Shown: piece after piece, positions 4,722-49,748 of the stretch
Position numbering within the stretch: the first letter of the stretch is position 1
Layout of the letters: every line of letters begins with the position of its first letter
Origin: an uncultured Coriobacteriaceae bacterium
GTDB lineage: Bacteria; Actinomycetota; Coriobacteriia; Coriobacteriales; Coriobacteriaceae
Assembly: GCA_944320725.1 (NCBI GenBank)
Contig: CALUIM010000002.1
Span: 1-64,000 of the forward strand
Reading direction: 5' to 3'
Length of the DNA: 64,000 nt
The notes under the pieces: generated by a model
The model's database searches: none
What the model was told of the DNA's origin: nothing
The model's input: only the letters and a program-made list of their open reading frames with translations
Translations under genes and position numbers: made by a program

Positions 4722-7169
4722 ATGGACACAGAGCCAGTGAAGCTTGAATCTACGAGCATCGTGGTGGCGCTCGACACCTCGTCTGACATGCTCGCTTGCG
4801 CGGTTGCTCGCCTGAACGGCGATATGCGTGCTGCGGACGTCCAGACGCGCGGTGCGTGCACCGTGTTGGCTTCGGGCGACCACATGTGCCGCCGGCATGC
4901 CAACGTCGAGTTGGTGAATACGGTGGATGCAACGCTCACGGCGGCGGGTCTTACACGTGCCGATGTCGATGCCTATCTCGTGGGGCGCGGTCCGGGATCG
5001 TTCACGGGCGTGCGCATTGGTATCTCGACGGCAAAGGGCCTGGCGTGCGGCGCGGCGAAGCCGCTCTTTGGCACGTCGACGCTCGATGCATATGCATGGA
5101 CCGCGTGGAAGGCGGGCGTGCGCGGCCTGTTGGGCGTTGCGGCCGACGCCATGCGCGGTGAGGTGTATCCGGCGCTCTATGAGCTCGACGAATGCGGCGC
5201 GCATCGCCAATTTGAGCGGGAGCGCGTGGTAAAAGCTGCCGTAGCGGTCGACGAGTGGGCTGCACGCCCCGATGCCGCGTCGCTTCAGCTCACCGGCGAT
5301 GGCCTCGTGCGCTACGGGGCGCGCTTCGAAGCTGCGGGGCTGATGCAACGCGCCCTGCCGCGCGAGCTCTGGTGGCCCACGGGCGAGGGGTTGCTGCTCG
5401 CGGCCTGTTCCGCCGAGGGGCGTGCCGCGCTGGGCTCGGGTGATCCCGCGCTCGTGCTGCCCATCTATACGCGGCTTTCTGATGCCGAGGAGAACGAGCG
5501 ACGCCGCTTGGGCAGGGCCGAGAGCGAGCGCGACGGCGCGGTTGGCGTGGCAGAGGAGCTTGCCGGTAGGCATTTGCAGTTTCGCCCGATGGGCGCCGCG
5601 GATGCCGAACCTGCGGCGGCGCTCGAACGCATGTGTTTTGAAGGGGCGGCGCATGCGCCCTGGACGGCATCGCAGTTCCTCGCTGAGTTTTCCAACGAGG
5701 CGGCGGTCCCCAGAAGCTGGTGGGTTGCACATGACGATGGCGAGCTCGTGGGCTTCGCCGGTGGCATGGTGGTCGATCAGGATATTCAGATTCTCGACGT
5801 CGCTACCGTGCCTGCGCGGCGACGCGAGGGTATTGCGCGCACGCTGCTGGGGCGCGTGAGCTACGATGCGCAGATGCTTGGCTGCACGACGGCATCGCTT
5901 GAGGTCGAGGCGGAAAACGCCGCCGCGATCGCCCTGTATGAGGGGCTCGGCTTTGCGCAGGCAGGCCTCAGGCGCAACTATTATGCGCCCGGGTGCGATG
6001 CACTCGTCATGACGGCGCCGTTGCCGCTTGCGCTGCCCGTAAGCGATGCTTCGCCCGAGCCTACGGCGCGCGCTGCGCGTCCGTGGCCACCCAAGGAGCC
6101 GGTGCGGACAGATGATGAGCACAAGCGGCTTGCAGAAGCGCGGCCCGTGCTTGCCATCGAGAGCTCGTGTGACGAGACCGCCGTTGCCGTTATGGATGCC
6201 GAGGGTGCGCTACTTGCCAATCAGGTTTCGACGCAGATCGATTTTCACGCGCGGTTTGGCGGCGTGGTTCCCGAGATTGCCTCGCGCAAGCACGTCGAGG
6301 TGATTGCGAGTGTGGTTGATGCCGCGCTTGAAGAGGCAACGCGTGCGCTTGGTCTTGCGGGTGGAACGCTGGCGCCGCATGAGCTTGCTGCGGTTGCCGT
6401 CACCCAGGGCCCGGGCCTGGTGGGCGCGCTTGTGGTGGGCGTGGCATTTGCCAAGGGCTTTGCCTATGCTGCAGACGTTCCGCTCATCTGCGTCAACCAT
6501 CTCGAGGGCCATCTTTTCGCCAATCTGCTCACCACACCCGATCTTGAGCCGCCGTTTATCTTTACGCTCGTTTCGGGCGGCCACACCATGCTGGTGCATG
6601 TGCGGGCATGGGGCGATTATGAGGTGCTGGGCGAGACGCTCGACGACGCGGTGGGCGAGGCGTTCGACAAGGTTGCCAAGGCGCTCGGTCTGGGATATCC
6701 GGGCGGCCCGGTCATCTCGCGCTTGGCCGAGACGGGGAATCCGCATGCCATCGAGTTCCCGCGTGCGCTCAACCGCAAGGGCGACTACCGCTTCTCGCTT
6801 TCGGGTCTCAAGACCGCCGTGGTCAACTACATCGAACATGAGACGCAGGCAGGGCGCCCCATTCATCTACCTGACCTTGCGGCGTCGTTCGAGGCCGCGG
6901 TGTTCGACGTGCAGTACAAGAAGGCGTGGGCGGCGCTACGCCAAACCGGTGCGCGCGAATATTGCATTGGCGGCGGCGTGGCCGCTAATCCCCATCTCCG
7001 CGAGATGATGATTCGCAAACTGGGTCGACAGGGCGTGCGCGTGACGGTTCCTCCGCAGGGGGCCTGCACCGATAACGCCGCCATGATTGCCGAGGTGGCA
7101 CGCCGCAAGCTCGCTCGCGGTGAGTTTGCCGCGCTCGACATTGACGCCGATCCCAACATGACGCTGTAG
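4722..7169 (+). CDS. TsaB-RimI-TsaD three-domain fusion protein
   Basis: This 815-aa protein joins three normally separate proteins. Residues ~13-255 are TsaB (VALDTSSDML, GRGPGSFTGVRIGISTAKGL), the scaffold partner of TsaD. Residues ~285-432 are a GNAT acetyltransferase like RimI, the ribosomal protein S18 N-acetyltransferase (VATVPARRREGIARTLLGR is the acetyl-CoA loop; NAAAIALYEGLGF is typical). Residues ~474-815 are TsaD, which transfers threonylcarbamoyl to tRNA A37 (AIESSCDET, metal-binding HLEGH at 593-597, SGGHTMLVH, GGGVAANPHLR). Linkers at ~256-284 and ~433-473 are Ala/Pro/charged. The domain order equals the tsaB-rimI-tsaD gene order seen elsewhere. All key motifs are intact, so each domain is probably active. 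Confidence 0.94.
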   Translation: MDTEPVKLESTSIVVALDTSSDMLACAVARLNGDMRAADVQTRGACTVLASGDHMCRRHANVELVNTVDATLTAAGLTRADVDAYLVGRGPGSFTGVRIGISTAKGLACGAAKPLFGTSTLDAYAWTAWKAGVRGLLGVAADAMRGEVYPALYELDECGAHRQFERERVVKAAVAVDEWAARPDAASLQLTGDGLVRYGARFEAAGLMQRALPRELWWPTGEGLLLAACSAEGRAALGSGDPALVLPIYTRLSDAEENERRRLGRAESERDGAVGVAEELAGRHLQFRPMGAADAEPAAALERMCFEGAAHAPWTASQFLAEFSNEAAVPRSWWVAHDDGELVGFAGGMVVDQDIQILDVATVPARRREGIARTLLGRVSYDAQMLGCTTASLEVEAENAAAIALYEGLGFAQAGLRRNYYAPGCDALVMTAPLPLALPVSDASPEPTARAARPWPPKEPVRTDDEHKRLAEARPVLAIESSCDETAVAVMDAEGALLANQVSTQIDFHARFGGVVPEIASRKHVEVIASVVDAALEEATRALGLAGGTLAPHELAAVAVTQGPGLVGALVVGVAFAKGFAYAADVPLICVNHLEGHLFANLLTTPDLEPPFIFTLVSGGHTMLVHVRAWGDYEVLGETLDDAVGEAFDKVAKALGLGYPGGPVISRLAETGNPHAIEFPRALNRKGDYRFSLSGLKTAVVNYIEHETQAGRPIHLPDLAASFEAAVFDVQYKKAWAALRQTGAREYCIGGGVAANPHLREMMIRKLGRQGVRVTVPPQGACTDNAAMIAEVARRKLARGEFAALDIDADPNMTL

Positions 7170-7344
7170 TCCCTAGCACCGCCGCTGTCCGTGTGGGCGG
7201 AGATACGCTTGTTGCAACAACATGGCAACGCGCTGGTAACATGCCGCATTGTCGTTTGACGGCGCCCGCGCACAGGTCGATACTACGTTCAGCCCAACGG
7301 GGCAGCGCGGAGATCCGCGTCACGTCTAGGGAAGTGTGTGAAAC

Positions 7345-7389
7345 ATGACCATCTATCAGCTACGCATTGCGATTGAGATTATCTGCTAG
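7345..7389 (+). CDS. Putative Ile-rich leader peptide upstream of cstA
   Basis: A 14-codon ORF encodes MTIYQLRIAIEIIC and ends in TAG. Five of 14 residues are isoleucine, and a CTA leucine codon is present, which is rare in this GC-rich genome. AGGGAAG lies 9-15 bases upstream. It is followed at once by alternating hairpins and a terminator (7391-7472) ahead of cstA. That layout is the one used for leader-peptide attenuation. The peptide is too short to have a recognisable family. Translation has not been shown, so this is inference from position and RNA structure. Confidence 0.55.
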   Translation: MTIYQLRIAIEIIC

Positions 7390-7390
7390 C

Positions 7391-7472
7391 GCGGGCTGAC
7401 GTATGCCGCCCGTGCAATACGGGCGGCCGCAAGATGGGTTTGAGGCCGTCGATGAACGTCGACGGCTTTTTT
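7391..7472 (+). promoter_or_regulatory. Candidate transcription attenuator of cstA
   Basis: Five segments can pair in alternative ways. Segment 1 (7391-7396) pairs with 2 (7408-7413). Segment 2 (7405-7413) pairs perfectly over 9 bp with 3 (7419-7427). Segment 3 (7423-7428) pairs with 4 (7444-7449). Segment 4 (7445-7452) pairs over 8 bp with 5 (7459-7466) and is followed by six T, an intrinsic terminator. A ribosome resting at the leader TAG would cover segment 1, allowing 2:3 and then termination. A ribosome stalled earlier would free 1:2 and then 3:4, the antiterminator. The terminator is clear; the switching model is inferred. Confidence 0.65.
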
Positions 7473-7504
7473 GTTTTGCATGCTCGCCAAAGGGGGACTT
7501 CGGT

Positions 7505-9343
7505 ATGAATGGTTTGGTTGTGGTAGTGGTATCGGCGGTGGTGCTTGCCGCCGGATATCTCGTGTACGGGCGCTGGCTTGCTCGTACATGGGGCATCGAT
7601 GCGAGCGCGCTCACGCCGGCGAAGCGCATGGAGGACGGGCGAAACTTCTCGCCGGCGTCGTGCTTCACGGCGTTCTCGCATCAGTTCAGCTCGATTTGCG
7701 GCGCGGGCCCGGTGACGGGCACCATCGCGGCGATGATGTTCGGATGGCTGCCGGTGCTGCTCTGGGTGCTTGTGGGCGGCATCTTCTTCGGCGCGGTGCA
7801 TGATTTTGGCGCGCTGTATGCGAGCGTCAAGAACAACGGCAAGTCGCTTGCCCAGCTCATCGAGAAGTACATCGGCCACACGGGGCGCAAGTTGTTCTTG
7901 CTGTTCAGCTGGCTGTTTACCATCATCGTGATCGCTGCGTTCGTCGATATGGTTGCGGGAACCTTCCAGGCTACTTTCACCGATGCCGGTGCGGTCGACG
8001 TTGCCGCCTCCTACGCAGGCGGCGCCGCAGGCACCATTTCGATCCTGTTCACCTTCGTGGCCATCGCGTTCGGCTGGATCAACCGTCGCTTCGGCTTGAG
8101 TGGATGGCGCGAGCTCGTGCTTGCTGTCGTGCTCTTTGTCGCGATGTTCGCGGTGGGTATGCAGCTGCCCGTGTATCTCGACAAGCTTGGGTGGTTCGCC
8201 GTCATCATGGTGTATTTGCTGTTCGCAGCAGCCATGCCCATTCAAACGCTCAAGCAGCCGCGTGATTACCTTACGAGCATCATGATGATCGTGATGATCG
8301 CCTGCGCCGTGGTGGGCCTGGTCGTGCTGGCGCTCTCCGGCCAGGCGACGATGACCGCGCCTGCACTGGCCGATTTCGGCGCCCTTGCCGAGGGCGGCAG
8401 CTACGTGTTCCCGCTGTTGTTCGTCTCGGTTGCCTGCGGCGCGCTTTCGGGTTTCCATAGCCTCGTCTCCACCAACACCTCGTCCAAGCAGGTTGAAAAC
8501 GAGCAGGATATGGTGGTCGTTGGCTATGGCGCCATGGTAGCGGAGTCCTTCGTGGGCGTGCTCGCCATCGTGGTTGCGGCAATCATGTTCACCGATCTCA
8601 ATACGTCCGGCGCGCTGGGGGCGGCTGTAGGTACGCCGTTCCAGATCTTCAGCCAGGGTATCGCGCGCGGCATGACGGCGTTTGGTGTCGATGCGACGCT
8701 GGCGACGGTGTTCATGACGATGTGTGTTTCGGCGCTGGCACTCACTTCGGTCGATGCCGTGGCACGTATCGGTCGCCTGTCGTTCCAGGAGTTCTTCGCT
8801 CGTGGCAACGATGCGGCGGAGGATGCCGAAGCGGAGAACACCGGCGTTGCCCGCGTGCTTTCAAACACGTGGGTGGCCACGGTGCTTACGCTGGTGCTGG
8901 GGCTTGCGCTAGCATTTGGCGGATACACCAATATCTGGCCGCTGTTTGGCGCATCCAACCAGCTGCTGGGCGGCATGACTATGATCATGCTGGCGGTATT
9001 CTGCAAGTGCACCGGTCGCCGCGGCTTCATGCTCTACGTGCCTGTGGTGTTTTTGCTGTGCTCTACGTTTACATCGCTTGTGCAGAGTACGCTGGGCTGC
9101 ATCGCGGCGCTTCAGGCGAGCGGCGCTGCCGTTATCGCAACGTCGGGGCTGCAGCTGGTGTTCGCGATTCTGCTTATGGTGCTCGGTGTGATTGTTGCCT
9201 ATAACTGCTTGAAGGAGCTGTTTGGCAAGGATGCCGGCTCTATTCCCGATGAGGAGCCCGAGTGGTCGCAGATGGGCCGCGCGCACTATGCAAACGGAGA
9301 CGCTCGCGAGGTGCCTGCGCACGGTGAGCGCGCAAAGGCGTAA
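7505..9343 (+). CDS. cstA: CstA-family carbon starvation / pyruvate or peptide transporter
   Basis: This is a polytopic inner-membrane protein of 612 aa. CstA proteins in E. coli and Campylobacter are linked to uptake of peptides or pyruvate during carbon limitation. Family motifs are SCFTAFSHQFSSICGAGP, the HDFGALYAS loop, GFHSLVSTNTSSKQ and the late FGASNQLLGG. The ATG at 7505 is supported by AAAGGGGG at 7490-7497. An in-frame upstream extension to 7403 would cross the attenuator and was rejected. The gene is monocistronic, with its own leader and a terminator at 9383-9416. The substrate cannot be told from sequence. Confidence 0.92.
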   Translation: MNGLVVVVVSAVVLAAGYLVYGRWLARTWGIDASALTPAKRMEDGRNFSPASCFTAFSHQFSSICGAGPVTGTIAAMMFGWLPVLLWVLVGGIFFGAVHDFGALYASVKNNGKSLAQLIEKYIGHTGRKLFLLFSWLFTIIVIAAFVDMVAGTFQATFTDAGAVDVAASYAGGAAGTISILFTFVAIAFGWINRRFGLSGWRELVLAVVLFVAMFAVGMQLPVYLDKLGWFAVIMVYLLFAAAMPIQTLKQPRDYLTSIMMIVMIACAVVGLVVLALSGQATMTAPALADFGALAEGGSYVFPLLFVSVACGALSGFHSLVSTNTSSKQVENEQDMVVVGYGAMVAESFVGVLAIVVAAIMFTDLNTSGALGAAVGTPFQIFSQGIARGMTAFGVDATLATVFMTMCVSALALTSVDAVARIGRLSFQEFFARGNDAAEDAEAENTGVARVLSNTWVATVLTLVLGLALAFGGYTNIWPLFGASNQLLGGMTMIMLAVFCKCTGRRGFMLYVPVVFLLCSTFTSLVQSTLGCIAALQASGAAVIATSGLQLVFAILLMVLGVIVAYNCLKELFGKDAGSIPDEEPEWSQMGRAHYANGDAREVPAHGERAKA

Positions 9344-27775: not shown

Positions 27776-27900
27776 CGCTGCCGCGTGGGGCGCGCTGCGG
27801 TTTCATACGTGTTTCCTCTGCGTAGAAGCTGGCAAAGCGCGTGGCGGCGCGGTAAGCTAGCCGATTGTGCACGTAACTTTCTCGCATTAAGTTGCAAGGG

Positions 27901-27921
27901 GGAGGGAAATGGGTTCCCTCC
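27901..27921 (+). promoter_or_regulatory. Hairpin hiding the ribosome site and start of an upstream ORF
   Basis: GGAGGGAA (27901-27908) pairs perfectly with TTCCCTCC (27914-27921). The five-base loop is ATGGG, which holds the start codon of the 27909 ORF, and the 5' arm is its Shine-Dalgarno sequence. A weaker stem, AACTT/AAGTT, lies just upstream. Confidence 0.6.
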
Positions 27922-27977
27922 GGTTGCGCTGCACGGAAGGGGATATCAGCAAAACATCGCGGAAGGATCAACCATGA
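27909..27977 (+). CDS. Putative 22-residue upstream ORF overlapping the amino-acid-binding protein gene
   Basis: The ORF encodes a basic 22-residue peptide (it begins MGSLRLRC and ends KDQP). Its TGA overlaps the ATG of the downstream substrate-binding protein as ATGA, the classic arrangement for translational coupling. It has a strong AGGGGGAGG site, which is itself folded into a hairpin. Two signals, the site and the overlap, support translation. The peptide sequence has no known family. It may tune expression of the importer. Confidence 0.5.
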   Translation: MGSLRLRCTEGDISKTSRKDQP

Positions 27978-49064: not shown

Positions 49065-49748
49065 ATGGAGGCGTATAAGCAGGAGTTCATCCAGTTCATG
49101 GTCGAGTCCGACGTGCTCAAGTTTGGCGAGTTCACGCTCAAGAGCGGTCGCACCTCACCGTTTTTCATGAATGCTGGCGCCTATGTGACGGGAAGCCAGC
49201 TCAAGCGTCTGGGCGAGTACTATGCTCAGGCCATCCACGATAACTTCGGGCTCGATTTCGACGTCGTGTTCGGCCCGGCATACAAGGGCATCCCGCTGGC
49301 GGTTGTGACCGCCATCGCCCTCGACGAGCTCTATGGTAAAGAGGTTCGCTACTGCTCCGACCGCAAGGAGGTCAAGGACCACGGTGCCGACAAGGGCGGC
49401 ATGCTTGGCTATGAGCTCAAAGATGGCGACCGCGTGGTCATGGTGGAGGATGTCACGACCTCGGGCAAGTCGATCGACGAGACCTATCCCAAGCTCAAGG
49501 CCGCTGCCGATGTCGAGGTCAAGGGTCTGATCGTGAGCCTCAACCGCATGGAAGTTGGCAAGGGCGGCGTGGTGACGGCTCAGCGTGAGATTCAGGATAA
49601 GTACGGGTTCCCGGTGGCGTCGATCGTCAACATGGTCGAGGTGACCGAGGTGCTGTACAACCATGAGGTCGACGGGCGCGTGGTGATTGACGACAAGATC
49701 AAGGCGGCGCTCGACGCCTATTACGAGCAGTACGGCGCGAAGGAGTAA
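49065..49748 (+). CDS. pyrE: Orotate phosphoribosyltransferase
   Basis: PyrE joins orotate to PRPP to give OMP in pyrimidine synthesis. FTLKSGRTSPFFMNAG is the N-terminal signature, FGPAYKGIPLA binds orotate, CSDRKEVKDHG is the catalytic loop and VVMVEDVTTSGKS is the PRPP motif. Length is 227 aa. GAAGGGAGG precedes ATG 49065. The ~115-base leader includes a GCCCGC/GCGGGC hairpin. The gene stands apart from other pyr genes. Confidence 0.95.
   Translation: MEAYKQEFIQFMVESDVLKFGEFTLKSGRTSPFFMNAGAYVTGSQLKRLGEYYAQAIHDNFGLDFDVVFGPAYKGIPLAVVTAIALDELYGKEVRYCSDRKEVKDHGADKGGMLGYELKDGDRVVMVEDVTTSGKSIDETYPKLKAAADVEVKGLIVSLNRMEVGKGGVVTAQREIQDKYGFPVASIVNMVEVTEVLYNHEVDGRVVIDDKIKAALDAYYEQYGAKE

Follow-up and report, generated by a model that had tools for sequence, protein, structure and literature searches.

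Ribosome-mediated attenuators of the enterobacterial his, ilvGMEDA and leu operons combine a leader peptide rich in cognate codons with alternating pairings and an intrinsic terminator, and the rare codon CUA is found in leu leaders as well. T-boxes normally give read-through on uncharged tRNA, so that the gene is switched on at starvation. Both peptide transport and pyruvate transport have been ascribed to members of the CstA family. In the Actinobacteria, ilvB leaders and the Corynebacterium ilvB-II uORF motif contain a uORF rich in codons for branched-chain amino acids (BCAA) and a terminator, with an antiterminator also present in ilvB-II (PMC1262725, PMC10272879); codon substitution in the Streptomyces ilvB leader was without effect (PMC1262725). 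In Escherichia coli, CRP, Fis and CsrA control cstA at the promoter and at translation initiation, in a paper that mentions no leader peptide (PMC7730263). A T-box has been reported upstream of Bacillus methanolicus cstA1, where it was regarded as a relic (PMC4342826).

Here we investigate the leader of cstA in a Collinsella-like member of the Coriobacteriaceae and its relatives. As judged from comparative sequence data, it appears to hold a real and conserved attenuator that is undescribed as far as we have searched, a known type of mechanism on an unexpected gene. By architecture it can be likened to the his, ilvGMEDA and leu attenuators, yet it precedes a carbon-starvation transporter rather than a biosynthetic operon, and it is actinobacterial, from the Coriobacteriia. 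The nearest relatives so far described are the ilvB leaders of Actinobacteria (PMC1262725, PMC10272879), but their target is ilvB, and PMC1262725 mentions neither carbon starvation nor Coriobacteria. E. coli cstA belongs to the same transporter family, although its regulation takes place at the promoter and at translation initiation (PMC7730263). The first-pass annotation held that ribosome-mediated attenuation of cstA had not been described, and no description of cstA attenuation or of a cstA leader peptide was found in the literature searched (cstA, Collinsella, carbon starvation), the only related report being the B. methanolicus cstA1 T-box (PMC4342826). Two large surveys of non-coding RNA mention neither cstA nor Coriobacteria.

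The window, a 64,000 nucleotide stretch, contains a cstA gene (7505..9343, + strand; Pfam PF02554, E 6.8e-136) encoding a carbon starvation protein, the proposed regulated gene, whose nearest named relatives are from Collinsella and Enorma. For comparison, relatives of CstA were fetched with their flanks. A recognisable leader was present at 35 of the 58 loci which, with the window added and duplicates removed, gave 34 distinct leaders from the Coriobacteriaceae and their allies. In the window the gene upstream of the leader is a tsaD-type gene ending at 7169; positions 4722-7169 form a single 815-aa open frame that apparently joins TsaB-, RimI- and TsaD-like parts. A promoter scan placed a σ70-like promoter for the leader transcript, TTGACG-N17-GATACT, at 7256..7284 (+). 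By pattern search, 23 of the 34 leaders, the window's among them, have TTGAC with a -10-like hexamer 71-111 nt 5' of their ATG. An additional hairpin is found between promoter and leader ORF (7301-7320), an interval in which many relatives have GC-rich hairpins of varying sequence. The possible Shine-Dalgarno sequence of the leader ORF, AGGGAAG (7328..7334, +; read from the sequence), is weak and somewhat distant, which is a weak point of the attenuator reading; most relatives have a purine-rich stretch in a like position. The Shine-Dalgarno sequence of cstA, AGGGGG (7491-7496, +), was also read from the sequence. Compared with shuffled versions, the fold of the 131-nt leader is better by 4.6 SD.

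The leader ORF itself, MTIYQLRIAIEIIC*, runs for 14 codons from the ATG at 7345 to the TAG at 7389 (+). Its five Ile codons 5' of the hairpins had been pointed out in the first-pass annotation, and both the ORF and its character are kept in all 34 leaders: an ATG start, 12-16 codons that include Ile and Leu codons, and a stop directly 5' of the first pairing segment, except that in L015 and L067 the ORF runs on for three codons to a stop inside segment 1. Alignment gaps within the ORF are mostly of whole codons, with start and stop conserved. The control codons in the window are CTA (Leu) and ATT/ATC (Ile). Across the leaders, 133 of the 431 residues are Ile (31%; 2.7% in the adjacent upstream gene), always encoded by ATT or ATC and never by ATA; Leu accounts for 14%, and each leader contains 4-10 residues of Ile, Leu and Val together. 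Of the 61 Leu codons in the leaders, 36 are the rare CTA, which accounts for 8 of the 2147 Leu codons in the cstA genes that follow them. The residues other than Ile and Leu drift among relatives. Three leaders (L028, L064 and L066) are rich in Leu, Val and Ile, for example MLIGLLDILVLVIS. Ile at -2 from the stop is the most conserved residue (31/34). These features are those that attenuators require, and they argue for a short translatable ORF enriched in codons for the regulating amino acid or acids.

A conserved short hydrophobic peptide near a stop codon might also be expected of nascent-peptide arrest, in which the leader peptide would stall the ribosome in the exit tunnel on a drug or metabolite and an RNA switch would follow. 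The peptides, however, vary widely across relatives and target genes while their Ile/Leu/Val content and the rare CTA are kept, a preference at codon level that would be surprising in an arrest peptide, and T-boxes with BCAA specifiers precede the same gene in Firmicutes. We regard such arrest as quite unlikely.

Downstream of the ORF, five segments on the + strand allow two mutually exclusive states, 1:2 with 3:4, or 2:3 with 4:5. Segment 1 (7390..7400) is immediately 3' of the leader stop and pairs with segment 2 (7405..7415), which may instead pair with segment 3 (7420..7428); both are assigned from covariation and from the swap test described below. Segment 3 may alternatively pair with segment 4 (7442..7453) to make the antiterminator, the 2:3 pairing being assigned from the swap test and 3:4 from conservation. 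Segment 4, assigned from a terminator scan and pair counts, is the 5' arm of the terminator, and segment 5 (7458..7477; covariation and swap test for 4:5) comprises the 3' arm (7458-7469) and the U tract. The intrinsic terminator so formed (7442-7477, +), 27 nt upstream of cstA, was detected independently by this terminator scan. Folded segment by segment, essentially all 34 leaders form all four helices, with 3:4 weak or differently placed in L012 and L018. In 1:2, compensatory changes on both sides are seen at 9 of 11 pairs; 4:5 is 96% paired, with both-side changes at 6 of 11 pairs. Column counts understate 2:3 because a bulge shifts the register, and the swap test, in which each segment is paired with the partner segment of another species (5000 permutations), was therefore chosen for this helix. 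The native pairing was better in 5000/5000 permutations for each of 1:2 (z -7.4), 2:3 (z -6.2) and 4:5 (z -11.4). Across the 34 leaders native 3:4 was no better than the cross-species swaps (z -0.7). The control pairings 1:3 and 1:4 were also no better than swaps and are ruled out as real helices. The 3:4 columns, which are also constrained by two other helices, contain standard pairs in 91.6% of cells and are near-invariant without covariation, and the support for the antiterminator is therefore conservation.

Mutually exclusive terminator and antiterminator structures thus appear to be encoded here. The alternating hairpins and clear terminator of the first-pass annotation stand, and to the pairings 1:2, 2:3 and 4:5 that it proposed covariation can now be added, while its 3:4 is conserved without such support. 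The alignment of cstA leaders that it called for contains both a conserved ORF and compensatory pairs in 34 leaders. Conservation of the terminator alone, which it had named as the outcome that would count against it, is not what is seen; the ORF, the codon bias, and 1:2, 2:3 and 4:5 are conserved with compensatory change.

Is the structure instead the plain intergenic terminator of the upstream tsaD-type gene, with hairpins and ORF present by chance? That gene ends at 7169 and there is a terminator ahead of cstA, but the promoter-like site at 7256-7284 separates the gene from the leader, and the conservation of the ORF, 1:2 and 2:3 with compensatory changes contradicts both a plain terminator and a chance ORF. 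We find this explanation extremely improbable. A metabolite riboswitch or protein-dependent antiterminator, to which the ORF would be incidental, could account for a 5' UTR that is structured and conserved and contains a terminator. However, there is no match to any Rfam family, the gaps in the ORF mostly span whole codons, its start and stop are kept, its amino-acid composition is strongly biased, and no conserved aptamer-like unpaired core is present beyond the segments explained by pairing; this too seems very improbable. In the Rfam 15 search, the window leader gave only sub-threshold chance matches (7378-7479), none over the gathering score, and a T-box (RF00230) or known riboswitch in this leader was rejected. 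Elsewhere in the window, positions 27867-27940 are a strong Rfam match to Corio-PBP RNA (RF02945).

The effect of ribosome position was computed with a nascent-RNA model in which partition functions were used to fold each of the 34 leaders just after the emergence of segment 4, the bases that a ribosome would cover being masked for each codon in turn. If the 3' edge of the ribosome is set at 12 nt, A-site positions 4-7 codons ahead of the stop make 1:2 with 3:4 the dominant state in 25-26 of the 34 leaders. For positions from -2 up to the stop, the dominant pairing is 2:3 in 30-34 of the 34, and in 34/34 at the stop itself. The pattern holds with edges of 9 or 15 nt, where the switch is displaced by a single codon. 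The first Ile codon falls in the ON zone in 26/34 leaders; in the other 8/34, where the ON state is not called, six favour 2:3, and L012 and L018 are narrowly under threshold. Early CTA and ATT codons (in the window, Leu at -9 and Ile at -7 and -5 from the stop) lie in the ON zone and the last Ile pair (-3/-2) in the OFF zone in this model; induction is therefore predicted on shortage of Ile, and perhaps of Leu or Val. The window leader RNA folded with no ribosome mask favours 2:3, so that a lack of translation would mean termination. The earlier suggestion that ribosome stalling opens cstA agrees with the model for the early Leu and Ile codons; at the last Ile codons and the stop segment 1 is covered, and termination is predicted.

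These calculations, together with the comparative data, make it very probable in our judgement that the element is a ribosome-mediated transcription attenuator of cstA, ON when branched-chain aminoacyl-tRNA is short. With charged tRNA-Ile, and probably tRNA-Leu and tRNA-Val, in ample supply, the ribosome would get to the stop and mask segment 1; 2:3 would then pair, leaving segment 4 available for segment 5, and transcription would terminate ahead of cstA. When branched-chain aminoacyl-tRNA is scarce, the ribosome would pause at the early CTA and ATT codons, 1:2 would form, segment 4 would be taken by segment 3, and RNA polymerase would continue into cstA. If the leader were not translated, the ORF RNA could pair with segment 1, and termination would also be favoured in the window sequence.

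A stall restricted to Ile -3/-2 would terminate in the model, and this counts against the attenuator reading. It raises the possibility of attenuation of opposite sign, in which stalling at this terminal pair covers segment 1 and turns cstA off when Ile is short, consistent with Ile -2 being the most conserved leader residue (31/34) and with the 2:3 pairing that a stall there gives in the model. The earlier Ile and CTA codons are met first by ribosomes, though, and the T-boxes of cstA would normally switch on at starvation; we consider the opposite sign quite unlikely.

The T-boxes lie directly 5' of cstA at eight loci, in Lachnospirales and at one Eubacteriales locus. They comprise two Firmicutes loci of our first search (L062:1506-1783 and L063:1438-1902) and six others, out of 28 additional Lachnospirales cstA loci; no T-box was found at E 1e-4 at the cstA loci L086-L099. 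The specifiers, read from alignments, are AUC (Ile) in L062, L063, L072, L073, L076 and L082, CUC (Leu) in L083 and GUC (Val) in L084. An azaaromatic (yjdF) riboswitch is also present in the last of these fetched loci (L084:40-190). The T-boxes of B. methanolicus, Lachnospirales and Eubacteriales resemble the attenuator in target family, in BCAA tRNA charging and in terminator read-through, but T-box RNA binds tRNA and has no leader peptide. A distinct RNA mechanism therefore appears to tie the cstA family to the same amino acids. Because BCAA specifiers precede eight cstA genes, the cstA T-boxes, including the one dismissed as a relic, may be functional. Returning to the attenuator with its ON state at starvation, it is most likely Ile that is sensed; given the conserved rare CTA, the Leu/Val-rich leaders of L028, L064 and L066 and the Ile/Leu/Val T-boxes of Firmicutes, the signal is probably BCAA generally, with Ile dominant, rather than Ile alone.

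A covariance model of the element was built and run over genomes of the family and the class. The element was present in 51 same-family genomes, usually in one copy, and absent from only three of the same-family genomes listed; across the class, 74 of the 298 genomes gave a match at E 0.001, in some cases a weak one. The genome of the window contains it once, before cstA only, and this single copy rules out a generic repeated element. Among the fetched matches it precedes cstA in several families and other genes as well, always with leaders that differ but contain Ile codons. The other genes encode an MHS-type MFS metabolite/H+ symporter (L139, L142, L145, L154, L156), a 2-oxopentenoate-hydratase-like protein (L135, L143, L148) and a ketopantoate-reductase-like protein (L146). 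The match at L153 is doubtful, and those at L159, L160 and L165, below about 30 bits and with no Ile leader, look like chance.

There are also CstA proteins 82-87% identical, in an Olsenella/Thermophilibacter group, whose genes are without the element, which speaks against the attenuator reading. No attenuator was found in these cstA upstream regions (L031-L037, L039-L042, L044-L048, L054-L056, L058 and L059). Olsenella/Thermophilibacter cstA genes are preceded by conserved inverted repeats, GTATGTTTC..GAAACTATG, many of them also by GTTGCGCGCGCAAC-like palindromes. A divergent response-regulator gene with an adjoining histidine kinase is found at L042, and similar gene starts are present in several other loci.

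In the genome of the window, ilvD, ilvB, ilvN and ilvC are in a single cluster (ilvC identified by Pfam, the other three from the ORF list), with no Ile or BCAA attenuator seen upstream. A weak T-box-like element is found 5' of ilvD-ilvB-ilvN-ilvC (L161:466-698; own genome G000:C13, about 49465-49697). It scores 43 bits, under the gathering score, and its specifier, read as CAC or ACA, does not encode a BCAA.

Because the same element precedes several other genes in related families, the matches suggest a small BCAA-controlled regulon in the Coriobacteriia. That this is an attenuator regulon for 2-keto-acid and peptide handling, comprising cstA and, in some families, the symporter, hydratase-like and ketopantoate-reductase-like genes, is a tentative proposal to which we give slightly less than an even chance. 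If it is true, this branch of CstA would take in peptides that contain BCAA, or keto acids of the branched-chain or a related type, and not just pyruvate; the BCAA T-boxes in Firmicutes would be an independent mark of that role.

In the papers searched we came across no attenuator from this bacterial class, to which a well-conserved one can now be added. Two unrelated RNA mechanisms, the attenuator in Coriobacteriia and the T-boxes in Firmicutes, appear to couple cstA to branched-chain aminoacyl-tRNA supply. Such a link would tie a poorly understood transporter of Collinsella-type bacteria, which are abundant in the gut, to BCAA shortage, and it makes testable predictions of the substrates of that transporter.
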